Shown here: in pieces, positions 1-64,000 of the stretch
How positions within the stretch are numbered: position 1 is the stretch's first letter
Layout: every line of letters begins with the position of its first letter
Assembly (NCBI GenBank): GCA_011033025.1
Contig: WFMF01000129.1
Location: 124,001-188,000 of the forward strand
Reading direction: 5' to 3'
Length of the DNA stretch: 64,000 nucleotides
Source of the DNA: Beroe forskalii
Taxonomy: Eukaryota; Ctenophora; Nuda; Beroida; Beroidae
Position numbers and translations under genes: made by a program
The notes under the pieces: generated by a model
What the model was told of the DNA's origin: nothing
The model's input: only the letters and a program-made list of their open reading frames with translations
Databases searched by the model: none

Positions 1-959
1 ACTCTCCAGTCCCCCAGGTGTCACACTCCATTCCCCCAGGTGTCACTCCATTCCCCAGGTGTTACACTCCATTCCCCAGGTGTTACACTCCATTCCCCCA
101 GGTGTTACACTCCATTCCCCCAGGTGTCACACTCCATTCCCCCAGGTGTCACACTCCATTCCCCCAGGTGTTACACTCCATTCCCCCAGGTGTTACACTC
201 CATTCCCCCAGGTGTCACACTCCATTCCCCCAGGTGTTACACTCCATTCCCCCAGGTGTCACACTCCATTTCTCCAGGTGTCACACTCCATTTCTCCAGG
301 CGTTACACTCCATTCCCCCAGGTGTTACACTCCATTCCCCCAGGTGTCACACTCCATTCCCCCAGGGGTCACACTCCATTCCCCCAGGTGTTACACTCCA
401 TTCCCCCAGGTGTTACACTCCATTCCCCCAGGTGTCACACTCCATTTCTCCAGGTGTCACACTCCATTTCTCCAGGTGGTACACTCCATTCCCCCAGGTG
501 TCACACTCCATTTCTCCAGGCGTTACACTCCATTCCCCCAGGTGTTACACTCCAGTCCCCCAGGTGTCACACTCCATTCCCCCAGGTGTTACACTCCATT
601 CCCCCAGGTGTTACACTCCATTCCCTCAGGTGTTACACTCCATTCCCCCAGGTGTCACACTCCATTCCCCCAGGTGTCACACTCCATTTCCCCAGGTGTT
701 ACACTCCATTCCCCCAGGTGTTACACTCTATTCCCCCAGGTGTCACACTCCATTCCCCCAGGTGTTACACTCCATTCCCCCAGGTGTCACACTCCATTCC
801 CCCAGGTGTTACACTCCATTTCTCCAGGTGTCACACTCCATTTCTCCAGGCGTTACACTCCATTCCCCCAGGTGTTACACTCCATTCCCCCAGGTGTTAC
901 ACTCCATTCCCCCAGGTGTCACACTCCATTCCCCCAGGTGTTACACTCCATTCCCCCAG
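1..959. repeat. 22-bp minisatellite carrying a 3' splice-site motif
   Basis: A head-to-tail array of a 22-bp unit, cccccaggtgtYacactcca plus tt, with roughly 43 copies. Copies differ by single substitutions (tcac/ttac, cccc/tctc, ggtg/ggcg). The window opens inside it, so its full length is unknown. Every unit has a pyrimidine run followed by AG and then GTGT, the layout of a 3' splice site. The last unit merges into the real acceptor of the NHL exon at 959/960. All three forward frames are open because the unit lacks stops; this is composition, not a gene. Confidence 0.93.
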
Positions 960-1109
960 GTGTTCGACTCGGCTGACAACTTCGTGTCTCGTTACGGCTC
1001 CCACGGACAAGGGGTTGGAGAGTTCGATAAGCCCTGTGGAATCACTGTCGACTTCGGGGGTCGTGTGTTTGTGAGTGATAGCTTCAACCACCGTCTCCAC
1101 ATCTTCTGA
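960..1109 (+). CDS. Terminal exon of an NHL-repeat protein (5' part outside the window)
   Basis: The exon starts after a C-rich tract and AG at 958-959 and runs in frame for 49 codons to TGA at 1107-1109. The peptide begins VFDSADNFVSRYGSHGQG and continues with GEFDKPCGITVD and a final VFVSDSFNHRLHIF. The pattern G-x-G-x-F-x-x-P-x-G-I-x-V-D ... V-x-D-x-x-N-H-R is the signature of an NHL beta-propeller blade, as in TRIM-NHL and related proteins. VFDSADNF would be the outer strand of the preceding blade. NHL propellers bind protein or RNA; which applies here cannot be told from one blade. The upstream exons lie beyond a minisatellite of at least 959 bp. Confidence 0.8.
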   Translation: MFDSADNFVSRYGSHGQGVGEFDKPCGITVDFGGRVFVSDSFNHRLHIF

Positions 1110-1346
1110 GGAGAGATCGCTCAACTAATCTTATCAGAGATAGAAACAGGGATGTGTTTATCATATCACGATCTTCAAATCTTCATGTTTTGGGATCAGG
1201 AATTCCTCAACGGAATGCGGATTTCTCATTGACATTGTGGAATTGGATATTATCAACTGTACAAACAACTGGAATGACTTGAATGGGTTATTTGGTTGTC
1301 CGATGATCAATTGGTCTACTTCGAGAGAATATAAATGTATTAATAT

Positions 1347-2141: not shown

Positions 2142-2299
2142 TTACAGGGGCGTGTCGAACTCATATGTGCGCGGCTTTTCCATGCGCGGCGTAGTCGTGC
2201 GCCCGGCTCGCTGCCTGTTAATTACAGGCAGCAAGCCGTGCATTGAAAAGCCGCGCATTGAAAAGCCGCGCATATATCAGTTCGACACGCCACCGTAAT
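2142..2299. mobile_element. Fold-back MITE with long terminal inverted repeats
   Basis: An almost complete palindrome of about 158 bp. The left arm reads ttacaggggcgtgtcgaact and the right arm ends agttcgacacgccaccgtaa. The pairing continues through tgcgcggctttt and gctgcctgt to a small loop of aattaac near 2220. The GC-rich arms contrast with the A+T-rich surroundings. It has no ORF. The family is unknown, and the target-site duplication is unclear because the ends themselves read TTAC/GTAA. Confidence 0.65.
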
Positions 2300-7500: not shown

Positions 7501-9270
7501 GATAATTTCGATGATAATGTATCTTCTAAATAATCCTTCTGAATATACTAATTACCCACCAAGTTAAAAGTCTGCATCTGAATTAGTTTTATTGATTGTT
7601 TACCAAATGAATCTATCTGTTCAGGGTGGGATATTCTCCTTGAAGCTTTTGCAGAGGAATTCACAGGAATGGAACATGTTTGCTTGGCTATCAGGTCAAC
7701 TGGTCTAAATGATCAGATCTACAAAATTCATAACCCCAACCACGCTAAAATAATCAAAGTGGAGAGACTTTCCAATGATGGTATAAATTTAAATGTTCTT
7801 CTGGAAAACTTATGATTTATTTAAACTTCTTCATAATAAAATACATCTCTCAATTTTCGACAGCAGGAACCTTGTTTAAACAGTAATCCCTAATTAAGGA
7901 GCAATTCATCAATAATATATCATAAGTACCCTGCAATGATCGTTAAACCATTCTCTCTCCAGATTACCCCTCTTTCTACGCGAGTGCTGACGCCTTTGTC
8001 CTCGCCTCTCACGGAGAGGGATGGGGCAGGACGGCTATGGAAGCGATGGCAGTGGGGCTGCCTGTCATAGCAACTCATTGGAGTGGTCTGTCTGAGTTCC
8101 TGTCTCCTGATTACTCAATCCCTGTCAATGTGACGGATGTAGAGCCTGCATTCCCTAATGAACCTGGTAGTTTAGGTCAGTTACCATTGCTTTATTTGGT
8201 GGGCATATCGTCCAGTTTCCCAAAAAGTTTAATATCAAAAGCCTATTGTGGCAATTTTTTCCGTTCACATTGTGAAAATGAATCATTGAGTTTCGTCTTG
8301 AAATCGATGGAGCGAGCAATGGAATGTAATCTGACGAGTTGGCTCCAGTAATAATAATGCTCGATAATTTCCCACATTGTGGAAAATATTATCTGGATTC
8401 CACTTAATCCAGCACATAATTTCTAATACCTGAAATTTGACACCAACAGCGTAATCATATTAACATTCCAGAGGCTTGTCTCTATCTGTGCCCTATTTCG
8501 CCCAAATTGCGACTTTTTCCATTTTTTACTGTGCCACTCTGTGTCTGGCTGAACTAGGTCATTGTGTGTCCACAGAGCCTCATTAATGTGATTTGCAAAT
8601 CATGATCTTTTAAGGGTAACTCCCGCGGGTTTGACTATTTTTAACCCAGGGGATTGATTTTTGATTATGCTGAAGTGGCAGGATGAAAGATGAACTAACA
8701 ATAACCATAACTTGTGAACCAGGTGGAGGGGATGTTAATCTGAAAGTCCACAAATGGGCTCGTGTAGACAAGTACGCTGTTAGGGGGGCTATGAGATGGC
8801 TCTTCAACAACCAGCAAGCAGCCCGGCAGTTAGGTTAGTTCTACCTGGAGTCGCCCTGCCTTCGGACCTTGCTTTTTGGAATTTTCAAAAAACCACTTTG
8901 TTAAGCAATGTCTTGAAATTATGTTTCAGATATCTCTTTTGAAGTTTTGAGAGGGTTTACATTTTGACAATTTTTTGGACAATTGGACTGTATGTTCACG
9001 AAGATGTACAGTAATAAATTATCACTTCGGAGTTGCGCTACAGAACTTATAGGAGAACTATTTGTAAATATGTAACGGCTCATAAAATTATACATCTTTA
9101 TTAAATTAAACCCTCCCCCAGGCCGTAAAGCTGAGGATTTTGTTCACGGCCACTTCACCCGGGACCACATCGCTGAGGACATCCACAGGAGACTGCTGCA
9201 GATCTACCACACCCACTTCAGAGACAGAGACCTCTCTCACGCTAAAAACTTACACTTGCTCTACAGTTAA
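4091..9270 (+). CDS. GT4-type (glycosyltransferase family 1-like) enzyme, up to 11 exons
   Basis: Predicted exons: 4091-4191, 4463-4488, 4605-4778, 6288-6391, 6508-6622, 6896-7059, 7338-7458, 7625-7780, 7963-8175, 8723-8833 and 9122-9270. All junctions keep one frame and give about 477 residues. The product should move a sugar from a nucleotide-sugar donor. The N-terminal Rossmann half ends with VDEVWVPSKF; the C-terminal half has the strand FVFIASSKWEDRKGWDILL and the donor-binding motif HGEGWGRTAMEAMAVGLP followed by VIATHWSG, hallmarks of the GT-B fold, GT4 class. The C-terminus is LSHAKNLHLLYS. No signal peptide is obvious, and the substrate cannot be predicted. The three 5' exons are phase-compatible but weak (a (TAA)n tract abuts the third acceptor), so the start is uncertain. 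Exons from 6288 on are firm. The last coding segment is expanded into a downstream tandem array. Confidence 0.85.
4515..4593. repeat. (TAA)n microsatellite
   Basis: About 26 uninterrupted TAA triplets in a glycosyltransferase intron, ending 11 bp before the proposed acceptor at 4604. They create a long poly-isoleucine frame on both strands that is not a gene. Confidence 0.95.
5119..6116. mobile_element. Non-autonomous hAT-type DNA transposon (998 bp) in an intron
   Basis: The element starts CAGGGGCGGCTCGT and ends with its exact inverse, ACGAGCCGCCCCTG. It is flanked by perfect 8-bp direct repeats atgtaact at 5111-5118 and 6117-6124. An 8-bp target duplication with CAGGG...CCCTG ends is typical of the hAT superfamily. 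The interior has a G-rich left part, repeated gggtgt/acaccc segments and T-rich runs, with no transposase ORF, so it would need enzyme in trans. It sits in the glycosyltransferase intron between 4778 and 6288. The clean duplication and near-perfect ends suggest a fairly recent insertion. Confidence 0.88.
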
Positions 9271-12200
9271 CTTGCAGATCTTTCACACCCACTTCAGAGA
9301 CAGAGACCTCTCTCACGCTAAACACTTACACTTGCTCTACAGTTAACTTGCAGATCTACCACACCCACTTCAGAGACAGAGACCTCTCTCACGCTAAACA
9401 CTTACACTTGCTCTACAGTTAACTTGCAGATCTACCACACCCACTTCAGAGACAGAGACCTCTCTCACGCTAAACACTTACACTTGCTCTACAGTTAACT
9501 AGTGCAGATCTACCACACCCACTTCAGAGACAGAGACTCCTCTCACGCTAAACACTTACACTTGCTCTACAGTTAACTTGCAGATCTACCACACCCACTT
9601 CAGAGACAGAGACCTCTCACGCTAAACACTTACACTTGCTCTACAGTTAACTTGCAGATCTACCACACCCACTTCAGAGACAGAGACCTCTCACGCTAAA
9701 CACTTACACTTGCTCTACAGTTAACTTGCAGATCTACCACACCCACTTCAGAGACAGAGACCTCTCTCACGCTAAACACTTACACTTGCTCTACAGTTAA
9801 CTTGCAGATCTAACACACCCACTTCAGAGACAGAGACCTCTCTCACGCTAAACACTTACACTTGCTCTACAGTTAACTTGCAGATCTACCACACCCACTT
9901 CAGAGACAGAGACCTCTCTCACGCTAAACACTTACACTTGCTCTACAGTTAACTTGCAGATCTACCACACCCACTTCAGAGACAGAGACCTCTCTCACGC
10001 TAAACACTTACACACACTTGCTCTACAGTTAACTTGCAGATCTACCACACCCACTTCAGAGACAGAGACCTCTCACGCTAAACACTTACACTTGCTCTAC
10101 AGTTAACTTGCAGATCTACCACACCACTTCAGAGACAGAGACCTCTCACGCTAAACACTTACACTTGCTCTACAGTTAACTAGTGCAGATCTACCACACC
10201 CACTTCAGAGACAGAGACCTCTCTCACGCTAAACACTTACACTTGCTCTACAGTTAACTTGCAGATCTACCACACCCACTTCAGAGACAGAGACCTCTCT
10301 CACGCTAAACACTTACACTTGCTCTACAGTTAACTTGCAGATCTACCACACCCACTTCAGAGACACAGAGACCTCTCTCACGCTAAACACTAACACTTGC
10401 TCTACAGTTAACTTGCAGATCTACCACACCCACTTCAGAGACAGAGACCTCTCTCACGCTAAACACTTACACTTGCTCTACAGTTAACTAGCAGATCTAC
10501 CACACCCACTTCAGAGACAGAGACCTCTCTCTCACGCTAAACACTTACACTTGCTCTCTACAGTTAACTAGCAGATCTACCACACCCACTTCAGAGACAG
10601 AGACCTCTCGCTAAACACTTACACTTGCTCTACAGTTAACTTGCAGATCTACCACCCACTTCGAGACAGAGACCTCTCTCACGCTAAACACTTACACTTG
10701 CTCTACAGTTAACTTGCAGATCTACCACACCCACTTCAGAGACAGAGACCTCTCTCTCACGCTAAACACTTACACTTGCTCTACAGTTAACTTGCAGATC
10801 TACCACCCACTCTTCAGAGACAGAGACCTCTCACGCTAAACACTTACACTTGCTTCCACAGTTAACTTGCAGATCTACCACACCCACTTCAGAGACAGAG
10901 ACCTCTCTCACGCTAAACACTTACACTTGCTCTACAGTTAACTTGCAGATCTACCACACCCACTCCAGAGACAGAGACCTCTCTCACTTGCTCTACAGTT
11001 AACTTGCAGACCTACCACACCCACTTCTCTCACGCTAAACACTTACACTTGCTCTACAGTTAACTTGCAGATACCTACCACCTACTTCAGAGACAGAGAC
11101 CTCTCTCACGCTAAACACTTACACTTGCTCTACAGTTAACTTGCAGATCTACCACACCCACTTCAGAGACAGAGACCTCTCACGCTAAACACCGCAGTTA
11201 ACTTGCAGATCTACCACACCCACTTCAGAGACAGAGACCTCTCTCACGCTAAACACTTACACTTGCTCTACAGTTAACTTGCAGATCTACCACACCCACT
11301 TCAGAGACAGAGACCTCTCTCACGCTAAACACTTACACTTGCTCTACAGTTAACTTGCAGATCTACCACACACCCACTTCAGAGACAGAGACCTCTCTCA
11401 CGCTAAACACTTACACTTGCTCTACAGTTAACTCGCAGATCTACCACACCCACTTCAGAGACAGAGACCTCTCACGCTAAACACTTACACTTGCTCTACA
11501 GTTAACTTGCAGATCTACCACACCCACTTCAGAGACAGAGACCTCTCTCACGCTAAACACTTACACTTGCTGTACAGTTAACTTGCAGACCTACCACACC
11601 CACTTCAGAGACAGAGACCTCTCTCACGCTAAACACTTACACTTGCTCTACAGTTAACTTGCAGATCTACCACACCCACTTCAGAGACAGAGACCTCTCT
11701 CACGCTAAATTTACACTTGCTCTACAGTTAACTTGCAGATCTACCACCAGACAGAGACCTCTCACGCTAAACACTTACACTTACCTACAGTTAACTTGCA
11801 GATCTACCACACTTAGAGACAGAGACCTCTCACGCTAAACACTTACACTTGCTCTACAGTTAACTGTACACCCACTTCAGAGACAGAGACCCTCTCACGC
11901 TAAACACTTACACTTGTTATACAGTTAACACAGATCTACCATACCCACTTCAGAGACAGAGACCTCTCTCACGCTAAACACTTACACTTGCTCTACAGTT
12001 AACTTGCAGATCTACCACACCCACTTCAGAGACAGAGACCTCTCTCTCAAACACAACACTTACACTTGCTCTACAGTTAACTCAGATCTACCACCCACTT
12101 CAGAGACAGAGACCTCTCACGCTAAACACTTACACTTGCTCTACAGTTAACTTGCAGATCTACCACACCCACTTCAGAGACAGAGACCTCTCACGCTAAA

Positions 12201-12539
12201 CACTTACACTTGCTCTACAGTTAACTTGCAGATCTACCACACCCACTTCAGAGACAGAGACCTCTCACGCTAAACACTTACACTTGCTCTACAGTTAACT
12301 TGCAGATCTACCACACCCACTTCAGAGACAGAGACCTCTCACGCTAAACACTTACACTTGCTCTACAGTTAACTTGCAGATCTACCACACCCACTTCAGA
12401 GACAGAGACCTCTCTCACGCTAAACACTTACACTTGCTCTACAGTTAACTTGCAGATCTACCACACCCACTTCAGAGACAGAGACCTCTCTCACGCTAAA
12501 CACTTACACTTGCTCTACAGTTAACTAGTGCAGATCTAC
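9197..12539. repeat. About 45-copy, 76-bp tandem array of the glycosyltransferase terminal exon
   Basis: The unit runs from tgcagatctaccacacccac to the end of ctctacagttaac and corresponds to codons LQIYHTHFRDRDLSHAK-LHLLYS-stop of the preceding gene. Unit 1 is the real coding sequence (stop at 9268-9270, codon AAC where later copies have CAC). Later units are 74-76 bp, mainly varying in the number of CT repeats in gacctctctcac. More damaged copies cluster at 10980-11940. The joint shares TGCAGATCT: exon ctgcTGCAGATCT and downstream aacttGCAGATCT. Every copy keeps the TAA, so transcribed units lie in the 3' UTR. Confidence 0.93.
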
Positions 12540-20200: not shown

Positions 20201-23200
20201 AAAATACGTGGTCATCAGCTGGAATTTGAAAAATCAGTTGGTACCTTGGTACTAAAATACGTCGATATCTACTGATTTCGTAGAATTAGAGTATGAAATA
20301 TTTACTTTTCCCCGTAAACTGCGGGAAATTCATCTCCAAAATTTAATTTTCTGCCTGATCACACATTAATTAGATAATGCGATACATTTTGGAGCCACAT
20401 AACATGCACCCACATTCCAATATTTTTTCTGCGTTAGCACAAATGCGTTAGAATGAGCGGGAACAGCAACTTCGCGATTGCTAAATCCGACGCTTATTAA
20501 TGACTGACTGAGCTACCTAGCCACCAAACATTCTGTAAACATTTAGCAATTTTGTTTGGTTTTAATCACTTGTACAATGAACATATTCTGTAATATCTCA
20601 CTCTTAAGTAATATCTCACTAAGAATACCTATTACCTAGTGCCTTCGTATGGCGAGTGCTCACATGAATTGAAACTTACATTTTCAATGTGTCATAACTT
20701 TTGAGATGTGCAAGCTAGAGAGATGGTCACAACCCACAAAACTTCGAACATGGTGTAGTCACCCATAAATCCTGTGTGGGTTTAGGACGTGGGTACTTTA
20801 CCAACACACCTAAGTGTTATAAATGGTTATGAAACCTTGATAAAGATCCAAAAGTTTCGAGTGGAATCATTAAAATGGCGATTTTAGGGCAATTCTTAGC
20901 TAGTCACGTGACCATATTAAGCATTTAAGTTCTCGTCCCCTTAGCCGAAATGGAAAATTTGACTTCATCAGGTCGCAAATTAATTTTTATATATTTTGAC
21001 CAAAACGATGGTAGTATCTTAAGTTAATATGTAAACGTTAAAAACGCATTTTATTAATTATCATGATCATGTGATCTAAGTCACGCGATCAAAATCAGAA
21101 ATTTTGATTCTACGCTTTTGGCTTGGGCCAAATCAAAGTTTTCGGATACTGTTAGGGTTTTCATAGCTATAAAACAAGCTGGAATACGCTCTATTTCGAA
21201 AGATTGTAGGCAAAGATAAAGAATCACCTCCAACTTCACTTGGAAAAAGCATGACGTGCTAAAATATCATATGACTGGTTCAACCATGAAACTTCAGTTT
21301 TGTTCTCAAAAACTGCTACCAGAGTCATTTTTAGAACCAGATTACAGATGAAGCAACAAAAACATTCCACCATCATGATTATCTCAAAAAACGACAATAA
21401 TCGACGCACCCAAATGTAGGGGCTAGGGCTTTATAAAAAAATATAGGGATGAAGGGAATGAAATGGAGGGGAGAGCTTGGGTCAATTGGTTATGAGTAAG
21501 CCTTCACTGGACAAAATAAATCCAAAATACCGAAGAGCATAAAAATTGCTTATAGCTGTTTTCCCACAAGGTTATTTTGCAGGGCAGTGGGCACGAATTT
21601 CAACTTTGCCTGGCACAAAATAAATGAGGAGTTCAGTTGTATGATGATTGGGAAACTATTGTAAAATTGTAATGTGCCTATGTCAATATCAAATACTCAA
21701 ATAGCACTTTTTCAAATTCCTTTGTACTACCAGTGTCTGGAATTAAATTTTCTATTCTGGAACTGCTCCAAAAACTTAGATTTAGGGTGGGTGTCTTAAT
21801 CTTTTATGCCAAAACCACTTAGTACCCAGGTACCAAAATACAGGTGGGTGGTGTCAACTCAAAAAAAGGCCAAAATGCAGGATCGTCGGCCCTGTGTCTG
21901 CAACTTAGTACCTGAATCTCCCCCGAATATAGCCGAATATAGTTCATGTACATTACTATGATCTCTCTCCACTAATGCCGTGTACATCAAATCATGGTCT
22001 ATATTCAGCAAAGGCAAACACTTCACGTGTGGAAGATATCTGAGGATGTGATCACTAGACGTCTCTGAGGATCCATTGTAGGATTCTGGGAAACAGTGCT
22101 ACCATAGACAGGACTTCCGAGAGTTTCTGAGAAGTAGGGATCAAGGGACTATCTCGTCTGCTCTCAAATTTAGCTTGCCATTGAGCCATTGGCATAACTT
22201 GTGTATAACGCCAGTATTCATGGAACTGTCAACTGCATATAGACTGGTCTGTTAGATGCGAGCCTGAAGAAGGTTATTTTTGGCTGGTATAACGGGCTGC
22301 AAATATTCATTTTCACGGTAAAGGATTAATGTAACCTATTTCAGGTCTGGATAAAGTGAACAATGGAACTCTGCGAGGTCAGACCAGTAATCAGATGATT
22401 GCCCCCATATCTCTGATACACGAGATAATCAACCCTCAAACGCAGGTTTCTGGTGTTGGTAGTTGAAACTTGTGTAATCATGTTATATGCAATGTTTTAT
22501 TTGGAAGCAAGCCCTGTACGATTATCTTACAATGAAAACTTACAATTGAAGTGCGATTAGTCGAATTATCAAACCTATGTTCAAGCAGAATCCTCACATC
22601 CACTAATTGGACTCCATATATCAAACACGACGTTAACCCTTGAATTTCAGGAGACCTCAGGCAGTACATCAGTCCCCCCTGAAACCTCGCGTCAACTCCC
22701 TGTTATAGTGGACAACGAACTGGTAGCCTCGCCCAAGCAGCCCCGCCGAGCTCCAGTCACCATAGAGAGGGATGGACCTGTGGACTTTCAGTGCCATTAA
22801 AACCAAGCTGGAACACACGCTGCCCATGGCTCAGCCAGCCAAGATGGGGGAGTATGGCAAGCCTCCTAACTCCTTGGTGGAACCGTACATTGTGCAGGCC
22901 AAGATAGAGACACTGGGTAGAGCCCCAACTACTACACAGCCACAGTACAATACACAGTACAGTGCTCAGCCACAGTACAGTGCTCAGCCACAGTACAGTG
23001 CTCAGCCACAGTACAGTGCTCAGCCACCTACACAGTACAGTACACAGCCACAGTATAATGCACAGCCACAGTACAATACACAGTACAGTGCTCAACCTTC
23101 TACACAGTACAGTACACAGCCTTCTACACTGTACAGTACACCGCAACAACTCAGTGTTCAGCCTCCTAAAACAAGCCCGATGTCTCCTAATACAGCACGG

Positions 23201-24165: not shown

Positions 24166-25441
24166 ATGGCCTCAGGGCTGGCACAAGTCGAAATCCAGGG
24201 TGTCATGAAACAGAGCAACATTAACCTAAGTAAAATGACTCATCTCTTGCAGGCAAAGAAGCAAGAAGAGCAGTGGCTGGATATAGACGACTTGTTGGCT
24301 GATGTGCAGTCGATGGTACAGCAGCCCGCCATCCCACCCCGCGTCACCACCCCCTCCACCCACCCCACTCCCCCTCCTAGGTCTGCCAACACCTCCTCCT
24401 CCAGCTACACAGAGGACCCACTCCAACCCCCTCGAGTCCCCGGGAGGTACGCCTCCCCCACTCCACCCCTCCCCACTCGCACTGTCTCCAGCGTGTCCTC
24501 CACTCCGCCCGTGAGTCCCACCAGTCGCCCCCTCGTGTCCCCTCCAGCCCTGCCCCCTCGCACTCCCCCACTCTATGAGCACTCAGTGAGTAGTGGCAGC
24601 AGCTACGAGAGGTACGGGGACTCCCACCGGTCTGCCTTCTCCAACCCTAACCCCCACGAGGGAACGCTGAGGAAGAAGAGTAGTATTGAGGAGCTGAACA
24701 GGAGGACGGAGGAGCTCAGTCTGCACAGGAACACGGTAAGAGAGGGAAGATATTAAGAATATAGCTGCTCTTCTTATGAAGCTCATCATTGAACTGGCAT
24801 TGCTCCTATGTTCCGTTGCTACTTGGCCCCTTTAGAACTAGGTAATTACCTGAAGATTACCCCTCGGAATGTCCCCATTCTATTACTCCCTCTTTAACTC
24901 CAACTGTCCTCTGTTTCAGTCTCTGAGCAGCTCCACTCGGTCATCTGGTGGCGGTATTTACCCCCTCTCTCCTCAGCCGCAAGGTAATGTTTCTTAAAAT
25001 AATGTAGTTGAAGGTCTTCACATTGATAATGATAATAATTTGTCGTTAATTTATCCGTTACTAGCAGGACCGTTGGGCCTGCTGGATAATAGTAGTGATG
25101 TATTTTCTAAATTCCCCTGGATTTAGTTCCTGGTGTTTGTTGTATTTTCTCAAACGTTGCATTCCGCAGCATCTACCTCGCCTACCAACGTGAACGTAGC
25201 GTTCTACCAGCCCCAGAAGATGTACCAAAGGAGCGCACAGGTCGACACCTCGCCCTACAGTCCCCAACCCCCTGCCCCGCCTCCTGTTGACGAGGGTCCG
25301 CTTTATGCCAGTATCCCCGCGCAGTATAACAACGGACCGCCCCTCAGTCCGCCGCCCAGGAACTCTCCCCCTCCCCCGCCACTCCCCCGCAGACAAGCTC
25401 CGGATAGGATCCAGAACAGTCGCCACCACACTGTCGTGTAA
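24166..25441 (+). CDS. Proline-rich adaptor-like protein (separate gene or 3' end of the scaffold gene)
   Basis: Exons: 24166 (or 24253)-24735, 24920-24983 and 25170-25441; phases agree and the stop is TAA at 25439-25441. ATG at 24166 opens a continuous frame, but there is also a good acceptor (cttgcag) at 24252 in frame, so the first 29 residues may be intron. LDIDDLLADVQSMVQQ resembles an LD motif and matches DIDDIDSLLEGL of the upstream gene, hinting that both belong to one protein. Next comes a proline-rich region with PPLPTRT and PPALPPRTPP (SH3-ligand type), a basic segment (LRKKSSIEELNRRTEEL), and a C-terminus with SPPPPPLPRRQAP, a candidate SH3, WW or EVH1 ligand. It has no transmembrane segment or enzyme motif. 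The function is inferred only from composition. Confidence 0.7.
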
Positions 25442-25458: not shown

Positions 25459-25731
25459 CTGTCACATGTGACATGGTGACACCTGTGACACCATGTTGTC
25501 ACATGTGCCACCATGGTGGACAGGGTGACACCATGGTATCACAGGTGACACTATGGTGTCACATGCATAGTTGACACCGTGTTGTCACAGGTGACACCAT
25601 GCTGTCACCAGTGACACCATGTTGTAACAGGTGACACCATGTTGTCATAGGTGACACCTTGTTGTAACAGTGACACCATGTTGTCATAGGTGACACCTTT
25701 GACTCCATTACATGCGTTGTCACATGTGGCA
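25459..25731. repeat. Palindromic minisatellite just after a stop codon
   Basis: About 14 degenerate units of 18-20 bp, gtgacaccatgntgtcac plus ag or at, starting 18 bp after the TAA of the preceding gene. Each unit is an imperfect inverted repeat (GTGACA...TGTCAC), so the array can form many small hairpins. It would lie in the 3' UTR. Confidence 0.85.
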
Positions 25732-39722: not shown

Positions 39723-39865
39723 AGACATGTCCAGTCCCCATGATGTTCAAAATCACTGGTCTGTTTTTGATGACATTGACAGGCTGAATTCAGCATTGTT
39801 AGTAAGGTATGCGATATACATACCGATAGATTGTGATTGAAGAGAGATGCCTCATTTTAATTGAT

Positions 39866-40222: not shown

Positions 40223-41861
40223 ATGGAACATTGGAGGAAATGCTCAATGACTTTGTTATCGATTGCCAACATCTTCACCATCACCAGTGGTTTGGCGCTA
40301 GTTGGTACAGGGATACTGCTTCTCATCAGAGGCCATTTCATCTTCCCAGAAATTACTAAGCACAGGTAAAAATAAAATGAAGTTCGATTGAAGACCAAAA
40401 CCCAGCAATTTAATTCGTCACGAACACGTACTCATAAAAAGAAGCGCTATATTCGCTAAAGAAAGGTACTTCTCTATGAATGATCCCTTTCATATAATTT
40501 TCAGTGACAGCCTGACAGCAACATGCGGAGTTCTGGTTACCATGGGAATGTTGCTTGCGAGTTTCGGGGGATTTGGTTGCTACGCAACCCTCACAGGCAA
40601 ATACCTCAACTGCTACTTCTCAATGGTGTTTACTGTGGCGGTACTCGAGAGTTTTACTGTTGTCGCAGGTATGGTAGTGGTAGATGGCAAATTGCATCTT
40701 GTGTTACAATTACTAGTTACTAATTAAATTTCAGACTTTTTGAACCCCATCTGGCATTCCAGATAACTCAAACTTAACTGGAAGGGTCAGGTCAATTGCT
40801 CTGTGCAGACGTAGACCAAATGGACAAAAATTTTCCAAAGGCTCACAGTCTGGCCAAGTACAACATACCCTAAAACGCTCCACTCAAAACAGGAGGGTAC
40901 AAACAGGACTACATCTCGGAGAAGCTGGAGGGCTACGTGGAGACTCTGTTTGGACACTACAACAATGGGACAGCTAGAGATTGGCAGAGGTCCATAGTCT
41001 CACTCGTTCAGAGTTCCTTCAAGTGCTGCGGGTAGGTAAAATGTTCCAAATGTTAATGCTACATTTCATGAAGGAGATGTTCAATGCAGCAGTTAGCACC
41101 TTCTTTTTGGGCTCGATGAGTCCATTGCCATATCAAAATCCCCACTCATTACCATAAACTTAAAGTGATTTGATTCAGCAATTCTAATGTTATTCCCTTT
41201 TCTACTCCTCAGTCTTGATGACTCCACCTGGAAGCTGTGGTACGACTACTTACCAGCCTCCTGCTGTTCCATCACAACACCAGACCCTGAAACCTCTGAC
41301 CAGGTGATCTGCACACCAAACCACCCCTCCCTACACACGGCTTCCTGTAGCCCCCCACTCTCCCACTTCCTCAACATCACCACTTGGGGCATCATTGGAG
41401 CCTTCCTCGGCTTCCTGCTCCTCAACTTAGTCCTCATGGCAGCAGCAAGGATGCTGAGACGGTCCTTGAGCCACGAACCAGAGTTCGTATACACGGACGT
41501 TGTGCAGAACAGTAACCAACAGATCTCGAGAAGGGACATGTCAAAAATAAAGGTTGCTAGGTTGTCAGATGTTGCTAGGGTGTCGGATGTTGCTATGGAG
41601 TCAGGATTTGCTCGGGTGTCAGGATATCTGATGCTTCCAGGGTGTCTTATATTGCTAGAAGATCTACAGCTGGTTCTATTCACCCGGGGAGTCCGCCCTA
41701 CAATTCTACTTGGCTGTGATCAGTCCTTCAACCCTCCAACCAAAGATCTCAAACAGCAGAAAGATGGTCAGAGAGATAAAAAACATGAAGATAATGCAAC
41801 TGGTAAAGAAGATCATGGGAATAATAAGAAAGTAAGATTAAGACTAAGGATCATGGAATGA
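40223..41861 (+). CDS. Tetraspanin, complete, four exons
   Basis: Exons: 40223-40365, 40505-40668, 40893-41031 and 41213-41861, all in phase, 364 residues. An in-frame TGA at 40211-40213 precedes the ATG, which fixes the start. Four hydrophobic segments are seen: TM1 near LLSIANIFTITSGLALVGTG, TM2 in VLVTMGMLLASFGGFGCY, TM3 in FSMVFTVAVLESFTVVAG, and TM4 in WGIIGAFLGFLLLNLVLMAA. The large extracellular loop has the diagnostic CCG (split by the last intron) and PASCC, plus two more cysteines (VICTPN, TASC) and N-glycosylation sites (NGT, NIT). Tetraspanins organise membrane microdomains by pairing with partner proteins. The C-terminal tail is unusually long (about 140 residues) and includes a short internal duplication (VARLSDVARVSD) and a K-rich end. 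Confidence 0.93.
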
Positions 41862-42745: not shown

Positions 42746-45700
42746 TCAGGAAACAGGGCTATTTTTGTAGCGCCTCATTTTGAAAGGCGGACTGTAGAAT
42801 ATCCTAGCAACGTCCCCGGCACTGGACCGACTACAAGGTCCCTCACTCACCGTGACACCGGTGAAACTCCTGTTTCTCAGGCTGTTCATTGCCACCAGCT
42901 TGTTGCTGTGTTTCCGTTTGGAGGAAGGTTTGAAGAGGGAGGCTGCCCTTATCTTGCAGTTGAGTTGCTCCCGCTGTCTGTTGAGAGCACAGAACTGTAG
43001 GAGGGTACTGATGGCAGGGTAGAGGGTCGGGATCAGGAACTTCATCTGGAGGTATAGCAGGGTGATATAGGAAGTGTTTAGGAGTTGGATGGGTTTTCAT
43101 TTACTCAATCAATATAACACGAGAAGTAAGTTCATCATAATATGTCAGTCAATGATCGTCAATCAAATTCAGACGGTTGGTCAGTTCACAGTCGACTGAA
43201 TGAATGAACTGATAGATTGGTTGAAATTTGAAAACAGTCTAAGAACAAGACCTACTCATACTGACAAACTAATTTATAAACCGAGTAACCGACACTCTTT
43301 TACCCACTATCCAGAACTTACAGTGAATAGGATGATGAATAGCTTGGCAGGGCAGTTGCTGATGACTGATATGTTGCTGACCTCCTCCAAACTGTTCAGG
43401 GAGAAGAATACCAGGGTTGGAATGTAGCAGCTGAGGAGGAAAGAGGAGTTTCATGTGAGAATATTGACATGGTTTTGATATAAATACGAGTTAGATTGTA
43501 AAAACGGTTTAGAATGTAAATTTTGTGCTCTCCAAAATAAACTCTAACCAAACTCTAATGACCATACTTCGCGAGCATTTTGAGGAAGGTTTATTTTCAT
43601 TTATTTGGTGAAAGATTTTCCGGACAATGGACATATCAATTATCACAATACAACATTTTGTCTCGTAATTTTTCAACTGTAAGCAAAGCTGGTAAGGCTT
43701 AGATTTGGGGTCAGATTTGGGGCCAGGACAAGAAAATGGATTATCCTGTGCTGAAATGTCCTGAGATGAAATTTCTTATGCCGACATTCTACAACCGAAA
43801 TTAAAACTTAATGTAGTTTAATTTCAGTGCAACATTCAAAGAGCTTGTCACTAAATCTTCTGACACTTAATCAATTTCATTAATTAATTAAGCGATTGAG
43901 CGGATGAAACTTCCAAATTTTGGATCTTAGTAAAATTTCACATTAAAACATTGACTTCTGCTAGCATCTAGTTATATGGAACGACGGTTACATATACGAT
44001 CATCAGAAATTATGATCAAGGAGAGTAAAGAAAAAGTTTAGAATATTTTTCTCAAGAGATTTAAGTTTAAACGATATAACTGATACGAGAGAGTTGTAAT
44101 CAGAAGCTGTCATAAATCTTGTGATTATTGTCGTCAGCTGCTATATTTCACACACCCACGAAGATGCAAAGAGAATTAAACTGGAAGGAAGTAACTTTCA
44201 CAGGTTGGCTAGAGGAAAATCTTATATTTTTTATTATCACAATATTTCAATGTTGAACAGGAACACGAGTATTTACCCTGGTTAAGTTGGAACTTTCAAA
44301 TTCAAGCAGTAACTTTAACAGGATTTAACCTGTTGAAATTTAAAGATAAAGCTTGTGTTACAGAAACAAAAGACGTAGTCTCACATGAGGAAGAAAGATG
44401 TGAGGAGGACGATCATGAAGGTAGTTTTGGTGTAAGTCCGGCGACCGGGCAGAACTGTGGGGTTTTTGTAGGACTTAGCGAGTTCCCTGATGACGTACCT
44501 GAAATCATGTGTACTGTCAGGGATACTGTTAAGCTGGATTTGTGCTAACCTAGGTTGAATAAGAGACCAAGATACAGTGAAACTTTTGTACTGAGTTTTG
44601 ATCCTGAAATTGCAAAAAGAAGACTGTAACCCTTACCCCAGAGGCACTAAATTCGGCAACTCACGTGTTTGAAATAGTGGTGAGTACGGCACCGTAAGAA
44701 CTCACGTGTTTGAAATAGTGGTGAGGACGGCACCGTAAGAACTCACGTGTTTGAAATAGTGGTGAGTACGGCACCGTTAGAACTCACGTGTTTGAAATAG
44801 TGGTGAGGACGGCACCGTAAGAACTCACGTGTTGGAAATAGTGGTGAGGACGGCACCGTAAGAACTCACGTGTTTGAAATAGTGGTGAGGACGGCACCGC
44901 ACAGGATGGGAATAACGTCCAGAGGGAAGACAATGAACTTGTAGGTGTACTGGTCAGGAGGACAGAAGGGGACGGAGTAAGTGAAGAAGGACTGGAGCAC
45001 CCACCTGGGATGAGGAAGACTATGAACTTGTATGTGTACTACGGTGAGGGTATTGGACATTGGTCATACCACCTGGGCAGATGAATTACTGCGGGACATT
45101 GGACATTCCCGGGAGTCTCTCTCGGACTCAAAGTCAGGAGTGCCCCAGGAGTACCCCAGGAGTCCTCCGGGGAGTACCCCAGGAGTCCTACGGGGTACCC
45201 CAGGTCCACGGGGTACCCCAGGAGTCCTGGGGAGTACCCCAGGGTACTCCCCCCGTGTCTATGTACCCCATTGTAATTTGTAGGTCCTCAGGGAGTACCC
45301 CCGGAAGTTCAATAAATAGTGGTGGGGTGTAGAACTATCCGGTTTCAACTTCTGTCTCTGACATTGTAATTTTTCATTAAGTAATCGGGTGCAATAAATA
45401 ATCCGGGGTGTAGAACTATCCGGTTTCAACTTCTGTCTCTGACACGTAATAATTTCATTAAGATGCTGTGTTTCCCTAAAAGCTTGTTTATGACAGGTTT
45501 CAGACAGGTTTCACACAGATTCTATCTTCTTTTTGGAAAGTATTTTACGGGTGTCCGCCTGTCCAGAGGCCTTCGTTAGTCGGCCCATCAAGACGACCTG
45601 AGATTATCTGAGATCATCTAAATATCCAATTTCATTGATGGTTGCATGCTAGAGTTACCAACTGACAAATTTTAATATTATTATGTTTAATGGGAATTTG

Positions 45701-56252: not shown

Positions 56253-59200
56253 TGGTATCCGCAGCGATTTACACGGTCCTCACACAACTTGTACAAGCCG
56301 AGAAGTCATGCTTTGACTTGGACATCTCCGAGCTCTGTGCCAAGGTAAGAAAATAATAATCAAAAAGCTTGATTAAAAACTTTTACCTAAAAATTCTTTT
56401 TATAGCTGATGATAAGGCAATCAAAGGACAAATTAAAAACTGAAAAATTAGTGAAAAAGGAGTAGAGAATAATGGAATTATTGGATAGTAGGATCCGAGC
56501 TCCAAGGTCATTTGTATATTTCCATGCACCCAAAAAGAAATCCAAAACTAAACACTGATAAGTAACTTGACCATTTGGACGGATGGAACCCGGGAGTATC
56601 ATGGAAGAAGCTGCACATATTTCAACAAATGAAAAGCCAGACAACAAGTCATAACCGGCGCTGTTTACTATCTCATATCATACTTGACAGTTAACGCTCT
56701 CTTATAGTGTACTAGGTCTACACCAAAAATATAGGAACTATGGGATAATAAGAAATTTACAATATCCGACACTATACCTTGTCTATTTCTAATTGAAACG
56801 GAATAGCACCACACCAATAGCAGCCCATCATTATCCTGTCATCAGTTGATGCAAAACCAGGCTTTCCAACCAATACACTGTTGACGGTTAGCACTGTTAT
56901 TTGACAGATCTACTCGTAAAACCGTGTCTTATTAAAAACACCAATACAGCAATACAGCAATAAACTGATCCCAATCTTAGTCAAACCCTCCTTTCATCCC
57001 TTGTTCCTTCTTTACACCCCTCATGAAACGCTACTCACGCCGAAACTACCCATTCCAAACAAGTTGTTTGATACAACCCTAATTTCTAATTCCGATTCTT
57101 GGTGCGTAAAGACTAGGGAGCAAGAATGCTTCTACCCATTCCAAACAACCCTAATTCCGATTCTTGGTGCGTAAAGAGCAAGAATTCTTCTAGATGAGTG
57201 TTGCTGGTAGAGAAAAAGTTTGAACTCATCACTGATTTGGTTCGGTATATTGCACTTGCAGCAACAATATAATGTCCATCTCAAGGCGTGAAAGTCATTG
57301 AGAGATTGAAATAGTGCATTTCTTCGCGTATCGGTATACCTACAGGGGGGGGGGGAGTGGACACCTTTAGTTCGACCGTCAGTTACCTGTAACTATAATA
57401 GACATCGCCATCTACTTTAAAGTATCTGTAACGGAGACATTTCGAACTGCAGTGTGCGCGTCTTTTGTTTGCGCTGCGTACAGCCATGTTATTTACAATA
57501 CCCATCGCTTTAATGCGAGGAATAACCACATTTATCTGCAGAGAGCAGAGTGCTCGAGGAATAACCCCACTTATCTGCAGAGAGCAGAGTGCTCGGAGCA
57601 GATAGTGGACTACGACTCATTATGTCGGGCCTACCGCAGGAGGGGTGGAAGTACAGTTGAGACGATAGAGCGAGACAGACAAATAGTATCTTATCTCGGT
57701 AAGTGATCACGTAGTATCATTATTCCATATATGGTTTAATCTGGGAGATTGAAAACTAACTTAGTAGATGAAGCGCTGTATGTTCAGGGTCATAGTAACA
57801 TATACATCAGAATTAAATAAAAGAAAATTAAAAAAAGAAAAAAAACGAACACCAATTCATCATCAGCAAGGGAAAGAGACGGCATACAAAACTAAAAAAG
57901 AAGAGTTAAAATACAATTTTCACAAACCGCCCGTCTAATTAAGAACACGTCTACTTGACGTGCTGGTGCAGGCTATCCTAACAATATCTAGGAGGATAAG
58001 ATTGTGCGAAGCACTTGACAACCGATATGACGTCATCATCAGGTCTTGAAGTACCTTGTTAATGACGTCATCATCAGGTCTTGAAGTAGATTGTTAATGA
58101 CGTATTGGTCGTAGAGCTGCTCATTTCGCCTGGATGTCGGAACAACTCATGATGTACGTAGGCGCGTTGGAATACATATCACCCGCACACGGGTGATTTA
58201 AGGTTCTAGGTCATTTGGCCTAACTGAACATTTGGCTTAACGCCTAAAACTCAAACAATTTTAAATTTATCTCTCTCCCCTGACCCAAACCAGTATTAGA
58301 TTTAATGTCCAGTTAGGCTAAATGACCAAATACCGTGATTTAACACCGTAGGAAGTGTCGTGTGCGCATAGCCGTGACATAAGCACTATTAATCGGCATT
58401 CGGCATGGGTACCAACAAATTAAGTAGGTATCATGTAAGAAGAACAAAGGGAAAACTCAAGATTATGGAAAACAAGACACACAGAGTAGGTGCAGGACGA
58501 GACGATAAACACGGACACACATGATATAATTTGTACGTATCAAGTAACAATTTAAGAGGCAGTTTCAATGTAACTGAACAAGCGTTGAGTGTTGAAGGAA
58601 GATATCTGCAGTTACAATAGTATGGCCGAGAGGATACTTTTATTTAGAAAAACGAATGGAGTACTGAAAGTCGAATCACGCTTAAAACGGGAACCTGTTT
58701 TTGAGTGTAACGTTTTGATGGTTTCAGGCATGTTTTAAAATAACATATTTTCAGCAGGATCAAATAGCGGTACAGCTTCTGCAAACACTTCCTGTATCCG
58801 TCCCGAATTCTTTGGAATTGACTCGAATAACTCAAATAGTCAAATCAAGTTTTAAAATTAAAAAAACCTGTTATAAGTAAAGGATAAGCACGATGAAAAG
58901 CGATTCGATGCTGGTTCGAAAGGAGGAATTATGACATAATAAAATATGTAAATACAGTGAAATGCAACGCTAAGAGTTCATAACCCCTTCTGTTTCTGAA
59001 ACCATTGTCTGAGGAAGCATACCCATGCATATATATGCGAGATAACTGCTGGGTACCTCATGGGGCTTTTCTAATGCCGTGGTAAGGGTGGCGGAAGAAA
59101 CTCAAAGAACATGAATGTAATAAATAAATGAGCTATAATTATTTAGACTTGATTCTTTGATTGTTCAGGAGGATTTTAAAAGTATGTTGCTGAGTTATTA

Positions 59201-60766
59201 ACCCACACTTGTCTTGAGCATTCTTTGAGTATAACAAGCAGAAAGTGTTACTTCATACGCCGCTCCGCCCCCATGACAGCTCAGCCACCAAGCCAACCAA
59301 GCCTAAAATTACACCACTCACTTCCTACTTTTCAACAGTATAATCTATCCATTTGAGGGAAAGTTGAGAGAAGCACGAGGCAATAGTGAACCAAGACATA
59401 TTAAGACAAAGCTATTAACTATTAAGACAAAGGTATAATTTGCTCAACATATTCCAGTACTCTTGTGGAAAACAAAAAGACCGGGAATTCATCACTGATC
59501 GTTATTCGGAACTAAACTTCTGAGTCTGAAACAATCGATCGTTAAGTAGAGCTGATATTATGAACATCCTAATATCTTCTAAAGAGACATACTCTAAAGC
59601 AAAAGTATTTAAAGTTACACCAGGCAATCATGAAGTGAGGTACTTATCTATGGTCGTATGCAAGTAATTTATTACCAATTTCATTGACCAAGACCAACAG
59701 CCGACCAGAGAAGAAATTTGCTAGTGACAACCGTATTTTATCAATATACCACAGCACAGAAGTGCTGCAATATAATCAACCATAATGGAAATTGTAAATA
59801 TATTTTAGTCGGTTAAAAATATAGTTGGAATTTATATTATAGTCGTAAAATGTAAGTCACAGAAGCCGGTCTAGACATATGCTCGGCATAAATTATAGTC
59901 AACATAAGGTACATATATATCATGCTCACCAGCCAACTTATGCTAGTGTCATACTCGAAAGAATGGAATATATATGCACAAGAATTCACAATATTGGATT
60001 CCAAGAAAATGGATCGAGACAACATAAGAGTTTTTGGCGGGTATGGTCATTATTGCAGGTAATTAAAGCAGCCCATTCTTTGATCAACGGCGTAGTTCTG
60101 GCAATAAAGTTATAAAGATGGAAATATTCCCCAAGTAATGTACTCCCCCCTCAAACCACCTGCCATCTCAGATGCGAGTGTTCCTAAGATCCTGCATTTG
60201 ACGGCTAACCAGACAGTAGCTCCCGGAGAAGAGTTCAGGATAGAATGCATTGCGGAGGGCGCCCCTTCACCCCACGTGGAGATAACTTATCAGGAGGAGG
60301 CTGACACTTCGTCGGTAATTATCACGTAAATTGGTATCTATTTTAATCTCAAAACGACAGTGCAGAGTGCTGTTATTTGACCAGTTCATATCTGTGTAAT
60401 GTGTTACAATCAGGTAGGATATGACATTTGTTGTCATTATCCGAATTAATGATGACAAACCGCTAATATTGACCGTGTGCAGCAACGTTTGACTTAACAT
60501 TCAAACATACAAACGGGATTCCACGGTTCTTGAAAAAACAGGCCGTGATTTTCAGGTCATCACACTGCAACATCCAGATCATCACATTGCCCCACCACCA
60601 CAGGTAGAAACTTCTAACTCGGTGGACATAGTAAGGAGCGTGATACAGAGCAACATGGTGCAGCCTTATGCAGTGTACGAGGACCAGGGCTGGTTCCGGT
60701 GTGTCGCTAAGAACTCCCAGGGCTACGTCTTCAGGGACACCTACCTCACTGTCGCATCAGCAAATG
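56253..60766 (+). CDS. Secreted or surface protein with an I-set Ig domain, four exons seen, partial
   Basis: Exons: 56253-56344, 57581-57698, 60172-60314 and 60556-60766; all phases agree. Exon 1 gives VSAAIYTVLTQLVQAEKSCF, whose hydrophobic part could be the end of a signal peptide. Exons 1-2 form a small cysteine-bearing module (SCFD...ELCAKRAECSEQ...LCRAY) followed by a basic RRRGGSTVETIERDR. Exons 3-4 encode one Ig domain: FRIECIAEGAPSPHVEITY with the first Cys and GAPSP turn, then EDQGWFRCVAKNSQGY with the second Cys and the D-x-G-x-x-x-C motif (Trp-Phe replacing the usual x-Tyr), ending TYLTVASANG. I-set domains mediate adhesion or receptor binding. The start and all exons beyond 60766 are outside what I can resolve; the following intron is a tandem array that leaves the window. 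Confidence 0.78.
57518..57595 (+). repeat. Two 39-bp copies spanning a 3' splice site
   Basis: aggaataaccncayttatctgcag|agagcagagtgctcg occurs twice in tandem. Each copy has intron end, AG and the first 15 bases of the exon. The inner copy supplies the acceptor at 57580. Using the outer one would add 13 residues, RAECSRNNPTYLQ, in frame and without a stop. Confidence 0.85.
57699..60171 (+). other. Intron of the Ig gene
   Basis: A+T-rich. It contains a 34-bp duplication carrying TGACGTCA (tgacgtcatcatcaggtctt, 58028-58100). No additional exon was recognised, though small cysteine-rich exons could be missed. Confidence 0.5.
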
Positions 60767-63700
60767 GTAAGCTGGGCAGGGAGGGGGCTGCTTAACCTAG
60801 CTCACCGTCGCATCAGCAAATGGTAACTGGGCAGGGACACCTACCTCACTGTCGCATCAGCAAATGGTAACTGGGCAGGGACACCTACCTCACAGTCGCA
60901 TCAGCAAATGGTAACTGGGCAGGGAGGGGGCTGCTTAACCTACCTCACTGTCGCATCAGCAAATGGTAACTGGGCAGGGAGGGGGCTGCTTAACCTACCT
61001 CACTGTCGCATCAGCAAATGGTAACTGTGCAGGGAGGGGCTGCTTAACCTACCTCACTGTCGCATCAGCAAATGGTAACTGGTAACATATGGGCAGGGAG
61101 GGGGCTGCTTAACCTACCTCACTGTCGCATCAGCAAATGGTAACTGGGCAGGGAGGGGCTGCTTAACCTACCTCACTGTCGCATCAGCAAATGGTAACTG
61201 GGCAGGGAGGGGGCTGCTTAACCTACCTCACTGTCGCATCAGCAAATGGTAACTGGGCAGGGAGGGGCTGCTTAACCTACCTCACTGTCGCATCAGCAAA
61301 TGGTAACTGGGCAGGGAGGGGCTGCTTAACCTACCTCACTGTCGCATCAGCAAATGGTAACTGGGCAGGGAGGGGGCTGCTTAACCTACCTCACTGTCGC
61401 ATCAGCAAATGGTAACTGGGCAGGGAGGGGGCTGCTTAACCTACCTCACTGTCGCATCAGCAAATGGTAACTGGGCAGGGAGGGGCTGCTTAACCTACCT
61501 CACTGTCGCATCAGCAAATGGTAACTGGGCAGGGAGGGGGCTGCTTAACCTACCTCACTGTCGCATCAGCAAATGGTAACTGGGCAGGGAGGGGGCTGCT
61601 TAACCTACCTCACTGTCGCATCAGCAAATGGTAACTGGGCAGGGAGGGGCTGCTTAACCTACCTCACTGTCGCATCAGCAAATGGTAACTGGGCAGGAGG
61701 GGCTGCTTAACCTACCTCACTGTCGCATCAGCAAATGGTAACTGGGCAGGAGGGGGCTGCTTAACCTACCTCACTGTCGCATCAGCAAATGGTAACTGGG
61801 CAGGGAGGGGCTGCTTAACCTACCTCACTGTCGCATCAGCAAATGGTAACTGGGCAGGGAGGGGGCTGCTTAACCTACCTCACTGTCGCATCAGCAAATG
61901 GTAACTGGGCAGGGAGGGGCTGCTTAACCTACCTCACTGTCGCATCAGCAAATGGTAACTGGGCAGGGAGGCTGCTTAACCTACCTCACTGTCGCATCAG
62001 CAAATGGTAACTGGGCAGGAGGTACAACCTACCTCACTGTCGCATCAGCAAATGGTAACTGGGCAGGGAGGGGCTGCTTAACCTACCTCACTGTCGCATC
62101 AGCAAATGGTAACTGGGCAGGGAGGGGCTGCTTAACCTACCTCACTGTCGCATCAGCAAATGGTAACTGTAACTGGGCAGGGAGGGGGCTGTTAACCTAC
62201 CTCACTGTCGCATCAGCAAATGGTAACTGGGCAGGGAGGGGGCTGCTTAACCTACCTCACTGTCGCATCAGCAAATGGTAACTGGGCAGGGGGTGCTGCT
62301 TAACCTACCTCACTGTCGCATCAGCAAATGGTAACTGGGCAGGGAGGGGACTGCTTAACCTACCTCACTGTCGCATCAGCAAATGTAGTAACTGGGCAGG
62401 AGGGGCTGCTTAACCTACCTCACTGTCGCATCAGCAAATGGTAACTGGGCAGGAGGGGGCTGCTTAACCTACCTCACTGTCGCATCAGCAAATGGTAACT
62501 GGGCAGGGAGGGGCTGTAACCTACCTCACTGTCGCATCAGCAAATGGTAACTGGGCGGGGAGGGGGCTGCTTAACCTACCTCACTGTCGCATCAGCAAAT
62601 GGTAACTGGGCAGGGAGGGGGCTGCTTAACCTACCTCACTGTCGCATCAGCAAATGGTAACTGGGCAGGGAGGGGGGCTACTTAACCTACCTCACTGTCG
62701 CATCAGCAAATGGTAACTGGGCAGGGAGGGGGCTGCTTAACCTACCTCACTGTCGCATCAGCAAATGGTAACTGGGCAGGAGGGGTACCTTAACCACCTC
62801 ACTGTCGCATCAGCAAATGGTAACTGGGCAGGGAGGGGCTGTAAACTGGGCACTTAACCTACCTCACTGTCGCATCAGCAAATGGTAACTGGGCAGGGAG
62901 GGGCTGCTTAACCTACCTCACTGTCGCATCAGCAAATGGTAACTGGGCAGGGGAGGGGCTGCTTAACTACCTCACTGTCCTCACTGTAACCTACCTCACT
63001 GTCATCAGCAAATGGTAACTGGGCAGGGAGGGGGCTGCTTAACCTACCTCACTGTCGCATCAGCAAATGGTAACTGGGCAGGGAGGAGGCTGCTTAACCT
63101 ACCTCACTGTCGCATCAGCAAATGGTAAATGGGCAGGGGGGCTGCTTAACCTAACTCACTGTTGCATCGGCAAATGGTAACTGGGCAGGGAGGCTGCTTA
63201 ACCTACCTCACTGTCGCATCAGCAAATGGTAACTGGGCAGGGAGGGGGCTGCTTAACACAAATGGTAACTGGGCAGGGAGGGCTGCTTAACCTACCTCAC
63301 TGTCGCATCAGCAAATGGTAACTCGCTTAACCTACCTCACTGTCGCATCAGCAAATGGTAACTGGGCAGGGAGGGGGCTGCTTAACCTACCTCACTGTCG
63401 CATCAGCAAATGGTAACTGGGCAGGGGGGCTGCTTAACCTACCTCACTGTCGCATCAGCAAATGGTAACTGGGCAGGGAGGGGGCTGCTTAACCTACCTC
63501 ACTGTCGCATCAGCAAATGGTAACTGGGCAGGGGAGGGGCTGCTTAACCCTCACTGTCGTCAGCAAATGGTAACTGGGCAGGGAGGGGCTGCTTAACCTA
63601 CCTCACTGTCGCATCAGCAAATGGTAACTGGGCAGGAGGGGCTGCTTAACCTACCTCACTGTCGCACATCAGCAAATGGTAACTCACTGGCAGCAAATGG

Positions 63701-64000
63701 TAACTGGGCAGGGGGGCTGCTTAACCTACCTCACTGTCGCATCAGCAAATGGTAACTGGGCAGGGAGGGGCTGCTTAACCTACCTCACTGTCGCATCAGC
63801 AAATGGTAACTGGGCAGGAGGGGGGACTTTCGGGCTGCTTAACCTACCTCACTGTCGCATCAGCAAATAATGGTAACTGTGGGCACTGGGGAGGGGGCGC
63901 TAACCTACCTCACTGTAACCTCAGCCTCAGGGGCTGTAACCTACCTCATCAGCAAATGGTAACTGGGCAGGGAGGGGCTGCTTAACCTACCTCACTGTCG
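60767..64000. repeat. 54-bp array (about 60 copies) of an Ig exon end with its 5' splice site
   Basis: Unit: acctacctcactgtcgcatc, agcaaatg|gtaactgggcag, ggaggggctgctta. Its first 28 bases are the last bases of the Ig exon (codons TYLTVASAN-G); the rest is the start of the intron. The real donor is gtaagc; nearly all copies have gtaact. Units are 54 or 55 bp by the number of Gs. The third and fourth units still read cagggacacctacc, as in the exon. Degenerate copies cluster at 62780-63330 and at the end. The array runs off the window. Confidence 0.95.

Follow-up and report, generated by a model that had tools for sequence, protein, structure and literature searches.

We analyzed a 64,000-nucleotide window (contig C169, positions 124001–188000) of a 216-Mb genome, in which several genes carry minisatellites whose repeat unit contains an exon edge together with its splice signal or stop codon. 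Tandem arrays were called by Tandem Repeats Finder (TRF) in the window and neighbouring DNA and then read by eye; coordinates refer to the window unless prefixed by a contig or by an L number, which labels a fetched sequence stretch. Exon-edge units were found in four genes, namely a candidate TRIM-NHL gene, a GT4-type glycosyltransferase gene, a rhodopsin-like G-protein-coupled receptor (GPCR) gene and an immunoglobulin (Ig)-domain gene, and make up 4 of the 12 window arrays of the size class used for position testing (period 12–100, ≥3 copies, ≥60 bp).

Exon-edge arrays in four genes of the window

The first array is a 22-bp minisatellite (GTTACACTCCATTCCCCCAGGT) on the plus strand that spans about −374 to 964 and lies within the window from positions 1–4 onward, with 43.9 copies inside the window (4–964) and 60.9 copies in the whole array (−374 to 964; TRF). 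By reading, its units hold a polypyrimidine-CAG|GT motif that is the 3′ splice site of the last NHL exon (960–1109, plus strand), whose PF01436 match of 19 bits falls just below the cut-off of 20. Fuzzy search recovered 57 copies from this array of about 61, and the AG is intact in all 57. From the first to the last acceptor (−354 to 960) all three frames are free of stops, and the distance of 1314 is divisible by 3, so that use of the first acceptor would add 438 codons in frame. RING exons lie about 4.4–3.6 kb upstream of the window, and the RING part, with its exons joined across an array-filled intron, matches TRIM56 (2e-10); we infer that these exons and the terminal NHL exon belong to one TRIM-NHL gene. 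That RING–RING intron is occupied almost entirely by a 19-bp CT-rich array (L008 5711–6095 and 6143–6204; window −4289 to −3796), which by reading begins about 5 bases past the donor.

Both the TRIM-NHL and the glycosyltransferase gene are part of a duplicated block (C169:84002–96873 versus C169:122151–136947; identity 79–97% in pieces longer than 100 bp) whose two copies differ in their arrays. In the NHL paralog (C169:85.4–85.9 kb), intron and exon are the same, with one acceptor and no array, and the seed (22/24-bp) is bordered by 3-bp direct repeats, GTT, that lie 24 bp apart. Judging from this spacing (24 versus 22 bp), the paralog likely preserves the ancestral state and did not arise by array collapse.

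In the glycosyltransferase gene, the repeated edge is a stop codon. The terminal coding exon (9122–9270, plus strand), identified by reading, by its translation ending in LHLLYS-stop and by the same exon in the paralog, has no Pfam match itself; the exon upstream matches PF00534 (2.8e-12). A 76-bp minisatellite of 44.0 copies (9197–12539, plus strand; TRF) has a unit made up of the 23 final codons plus the stop, extended by two bases on each side, and this unit is common to both paralogs. The paralogous array (C169:95.9 kb) has 6.1 units versus 44, the flanks are unique in both, and the 3′ flank of the paralogous array retains an imperfect copy of the start of the unit. Because the commonest unit is identical in the two paralogs, the array probably predates the block duplication and has changed in copy number since, gene conversion being the alternative.

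The GPCR gene carries a 41-bp minisatellite of 5.9 copies (44658–44899, minus strand; TRF) whose unit contains an exon end with its donor, CAAACAC|GTGAGTT, intact in all six copies. The exon ending at the array (44870–45000, minus strand, upper end approximate) was delimited by reading and translation, further exons lie near 45.9–46.05 kb and 46.57–46.81 kb, and the joined exons match PF00001 at 0.0031, below the cut-off. TGCCG (5 bp) is common to the outer borders of the array.

The fourth gene contains the second half of an Ig domain (60604–60766, plus strand; reading and PF13927, 1.2e-8 when joined to the exon before it) in an exon that ends in ASANG and is followed by the donor GTAAGC at 60767. 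A 54–55-bp minisatellite with an exon end and donor (60795–64000, plus strand; TRF) continues 1837 bases beyond the window and totals 91.7 copies. Among the 89 donors found, 85 read GTAACT, and the gene-side donor GTAAGC outscores 87 of the 88 others; all donor and acceptor scores in this work use matrices of approximate metazoan frequencies.

A sequence-only reading of the window had listed five exon-edge arrays. TRF and reading bear out the four above, and the fifth, a 39-bp repeat of 2.1 copies with CTGCAG|AGAGC (57516–57595, plus strand; TRF and reading), is a weak case whose exon has no Pfam match. Two further arrays had been placed at a donor (28244) and just after a stop codon (25459) but lie only near these edges: a 31-bp array (28267–28704, plus strand; TRF and reading) begins 23 bp past the donor at 28244, inside the intron and without an exon edge, and a 20-bp array (25476–25697, plus strand; TRF and reading) begins 35 bp after the stop codon (25439–25441) and lies in the 3′ untranslated region (UTR) without including that codon. 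The claim that comparable arrays are few elsewhere in the window is true only when the arrays of 24 and 30 bp at 34346–34822, 36247–37809 and 39285–39723, labelled palindromic in that reading, are set aside.

Counterparts on other contigs and in other animals

Outside C169, the sample comprised twelve 10-kb stretches from seven other contigs. Across the full 244-kb sample, arrays with a period ≥10, ≥3 copies and ≥60 bp number 68 and occupy 33.8 kb, about 14%, so arrays as such are common. The position-test size class holds 59 arrays, 12 in the window and 47 outside it, of which 32 are on contigs other than C169. Flanks were read by eye for 13 of these 32, and the three clear exon-edge arrays found are therefore a lower bound; with the glycosyltransferase paralog, this kind accounts for at least 4 of the 47 non-window arrays. 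The three are an acceptor array of 23 bp × 27 in a transporter gene (L015 3261–3879; MFS 3.6e-19, SLC22-type by reading), an acceptor array of 57 bp × 3.9 at an EGF-like exon (L018 8135–8354; EGF 0.058, under the cut-off) and a donor array of 53 bp × 4.1 at a SNIP1-type FHA exon (L020 9580–9795), for which the best PDB match is plant DDL (2e-11) and human SNIP1 scores 2.8e-10. The outer SNIP1 copies both open with CACCCGT (7 bp), exactly 4 × 53 bp apart. Acceptors are thus repeated in the NHL, SLC22 and EGF genes and donors in the GPCR, Ig and SNIP1 genes, with units of 22–57 bp.

The sequence-only reading knew of no described system of this form, yet amphioxus "mirages" and a human gene, CBS, are already in print (PMC3087553, PMC3902484, PMC2630376). 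Mirages are tandem repeats spanning exon–intron boundaries (PMC3087553, which cites Canestro 2002 for them), reported in Adh3 and the globin genes BflGb6 and BflGb9 (PMC3087553, PMC3902484), and a paper on PGBD5 extends the list to that gene and troponin C (PMC3902484). These minisatellite-like duplications occur at 5′ and 3′ edges with units of 10–160 bp, many copies carry AG/GT, copy number varies, and splicing is reported to be undisturbed (PMC3087553, PMC3902484). The arrays described here resemble them in several respects: their units span an exon–intron boundary with its splice signal (NHL, GPCR and Ig in the window; SLC22, EGF and SNIP1 outside it), acceptor and donor edges are both affected, and unit lengths fall within the amphioxus range. 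As to copy number, the observation here is of 44 versus 6.1 copies in two glycosyltransferase paralogs of one genome. Unlike amphioxus mirages, the present arrays reach about 92 copies, include one stop-codon edge and offer an array-free paralog, and they are known from DNA alone.

Amphioxus has a Hox cluster and GFP genes. In the genome studied here, homeodomain matches number 104, with at most 4 on one contig (hand count), and no GFP-family match was found, a weak negative in that the controls gave no match either. The mirage hosts named in the accessible text of PMC3087553 and PMC3902484 are all cephalochordates, and the present host is probably not one, the homeodomain and GFP results and the 216-Mb genome size pointing away from amphioxus. 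Among the literature matches listed, with most subscription papers outside coverage, there was no mirage report from another invertebrate phylum.

In human CBS, a 31-bp variable number tandem repeat, c.1444_1467+7(16_21), has a unit that by its name combines 24 bases of exon with 7 of intron, donor included, as in the arrays here, and the 844ins68 variant duplicates an intron–exon junction while normal mRNA is made (PMC2630376). CBS is a single gene, whereas many genes of one genome are affected here. Likewise in print is the Rogers model, with a potato RdRp case, in which an intron is gained when an AGGT segment is duplicated in tandem (PMC4974935); it shares with the present arrays a tandem duplication that yields duplicate splice signals. 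Unlike in that model, the NHL intron predates its array and no new intron is demonstrated here; since the paralog has the same intron without an array, NHL is not an instance of AGGT intron gain. As far as the accessible literature goes, exon-edge minisatellites, described in individual amphioxus genes and one human gene, recur in another animal genome, and the NHL pair, the glycosyltransferase pair and SNIP1 add cases in which a relative lacks the array or differs in copy number, or in which seed borders are clear. Such cases make testable both intron gain via mirages and the choice by the spliceosome of one among dozens of near-equal sites.

Probable origin of the arrays and possible preference for exon edges

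The arrays are real and are additional members of an already described kind. We consider it likely that they are mirage-type minisatellites that arose by microhomology-bounded tandem duplication, drifted in copy number and are tolerated since the gene-side copy gives normal mRNA. As the seed borders suggest, a short segment that chanced to straddle an exon edge would have been duplicated in tandem between short direct repeats, by a route resembling replication slippage or microhomology-mediated repair. The array would then expand or contract by slippage or unequal exchange, a change visible as the 44 versus 6 glycosyltransferase copies, and would persist as long as the gene-side splice site or stop still yields the original mRNA, the remaining copies presumably ending up in an intron or the 3′ UTR. 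Exon-edge targeting is unnecessary in this account because the genome is rich in minisatellites and edge-spanning seeds would be tolerated much like intronic ones. The suggestion of the sequence-only reading that selection tolerates such arrays where one splice copy stays usable fits these observations.

Several observations weigh against this explanation. With the splice matrices, 54 of the 56 other NHL acceptors score at least as high as the gene-side acceptor, and the GPCR copies all score alike, as do the SNIP1 copies; near-equal or better inner copies in these three genes mean that site strength fails to explain exclusive gene-side use. The GPCR junction carries extra bases (period 41, seed borders 33 apart by hand count), so that some duplications are not clean microhomology joins, and the NHL paralog might conceivably owe its single copy to array collapse. 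The remaining points concern where arrays lie and which motifs they repeat. When random seeds were placed in non-array DNA and arrays were scored for coding-like sequence on exactly one side (thresholds 10, 14 and 18), the 12 window arrays gave 8, 7 and 7 one-sided cases versus 1.9, 1.7 and 1.4 expected. Tandem pairs exceeded the reversed-octamer control in all five splice-like octamers: CAGGTAAG (889 versus 163 reversed), AAGGTAAG (476 versus 259), CAGGTGAG (2022 versus 133), TTTCAGGT (692 versus 131) and TTTCAGGA (569 versus 56). Relative to single occurrences (6031 versus 4967 for CAGGTAAG, 18467 versus 6974 for TTTCAGGA), tandem pairs amount to 14.7% versus 3.3% and 3.1% versus 0.8%, respectively, an approximately fourfold excess where neutral seeding predicts about 1.

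The window excess and the motif counts raise the alternative that exon edges are preferred start points, with R-loops, purine/pyrimidine asymmetry or selection for spliceable segments seeding or keeping the duplications. We regard this as unlikely, although the octamer excess, both in raw pairs and per occurrence, speaks for it. So do the donor scores, in that 9 of the 49 array families of the 244-kb sample (2.5 expected) score as high as the best 5% of random segments, and the rank of CAGGT among array-unit pentamers (4 of 512, and 6 of 512 outside the window). Against it, the position test on the 47 arrays outside the window gave 9, 4 and 4 one-sided cases versus 5.6, 4.8 and 3.5 expected, no significant excess, and the 32 arrays on other contigs gave 6, 3 and 2 versus 3.0, 2.5 and 2.1. 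The excess in the window, where the hypothesis originated, is therefore not replicated; several of the one-sided window arrays are in-frame coding repeats or UTR or intron arrays rather than exon-edge units. For all 59 arrays at six thresholds, the test returned 17, 13, 11, 11, 11 and 9 versus 7.8, 7.2, 6.4, 5.6, 5.0 and 4.6. Its power is low because the coding score, from a model trained on about 17.6 kb of the same sample, misses true exons (SNIP1, EGF). Two other position tests were set aside. A rotation test (15 versus 5.1; 0 of 400) was biased, as masked arrays had interrupted the coding segments and two exons had been added by hand. A combined codon-score and splice-matrix edge test put 11 of 59 arrays above the 90th percentile of the null (5.9 expected) but was weak, ranking the SNIP1 and Ig exons low, and outside C169 it returned 3 of 32 (3.2 expected).

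Several motif results also speak against such a preference. Acceptor scores reach the top 5% in only 4 of the 49 families (2.5 expected), other G-rich pentamers are enriched as strongly as CAGGT, and eight donor octamers were tandem at one locus of the 244-kb sample versus two for their reversed forms. Octamer pair counts are dominated by big arrays, and only one control octamer was listed by place: across contigs C1 to C216, CAGGTAAG has at least about 20 tandem loci plus a dispersed 22-bp family at 10, and its reversed control at least 2 tandem loci plus one dispersed family (both hand counts among the matches listed). The donor-like arrays L012 51–259 and L021 6775–7385 either showed no coding sequence at their flanks or are members of a dispersed family. 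An advantage specific to AG|GT was also considered and is unsupported, TTTCAGGA tandems being nearly as common as those of TTTCAGGT.

Motif evidence for a genome-wide preference of arrays for splice sites is therefore suggestive but unproved. A new genome-wide system is not supported, since the position test gives it no support and the motif counts only hint at it. The sequence-only reading had proposed a genome-wide process starting duplications at exon edges; this proposal is not established, as the window excess in the position test has no significant counterpart outside the window, while the octamer counts point the other way. It is doubtful that arrays are over-represented at splice sites genome-wide and that mirages represent a general phase in how genes evolve beyond cephalochordates. 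Were this so, splice-site segments would be preferentially duplicated or kept, and the duplicated splice signals would form a permanent reservoir for the emergence of new introns and exon ends.

The arrays might instead be used, alternative acceptors or donors adding repeat-coded peptide or tuning expression. We judge this highly improbable, even with the intact AG in 57 of 57 NHL copies, the stop-free frames and the acceptor distance divisible by 3. A 22-mer without a stop triplet is open in all frames by itself, and the few NHL variants recur among copies, so the 57 copies are not independent; moreover, the exon exists array-free in the NHL paralog, and 87 of 88 decoy donors in the Ig gene score below the gene-side donor. 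Assembly artefact, to which tandem arrays are prone, is the least credible explanation, given that units differ among themselves (90–96% matches in the main rows), that the two paralogs have different counts with unique flanks and that the same kind of array recurs on other contigs.

Other repeats and genes

A strong donor-like motif also marks a dispersed 22-bp minisatellite family (AGTAGGTCAGGTAAGATTCGCC), which occurs at L012 51–259 and on C14, C157, C175, C181, C187, C189 and C196, among the matches listed. At C216:181841–182095, a 28-bp array with the unit GTAAG...CTCCCAG has AG|GT with a polypyrimidine tract at each unit boundary and resembles strings of tiny introns or ratchet sites. 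Arrays of 18, 36 and 30 bp in the window (22942–23141 and 41553–41625) and outside it (L015 7652–7800, L017 3628–3888) are likely in-frame coding repeats, an appearance expected of units that are multiples of three. An Rfam search returned no match at the gathering threshold. On the minus strand of L007 (2003–4537), a stop-free stretch of 845 codons contains eight saposin B type matches, and the window itself holds an element labelled by reading as similar to a long interspersed nuclear element (LINE), with an open reverse transcriptase frame (31165–32355, plus strand; PF00078, 1e-18).

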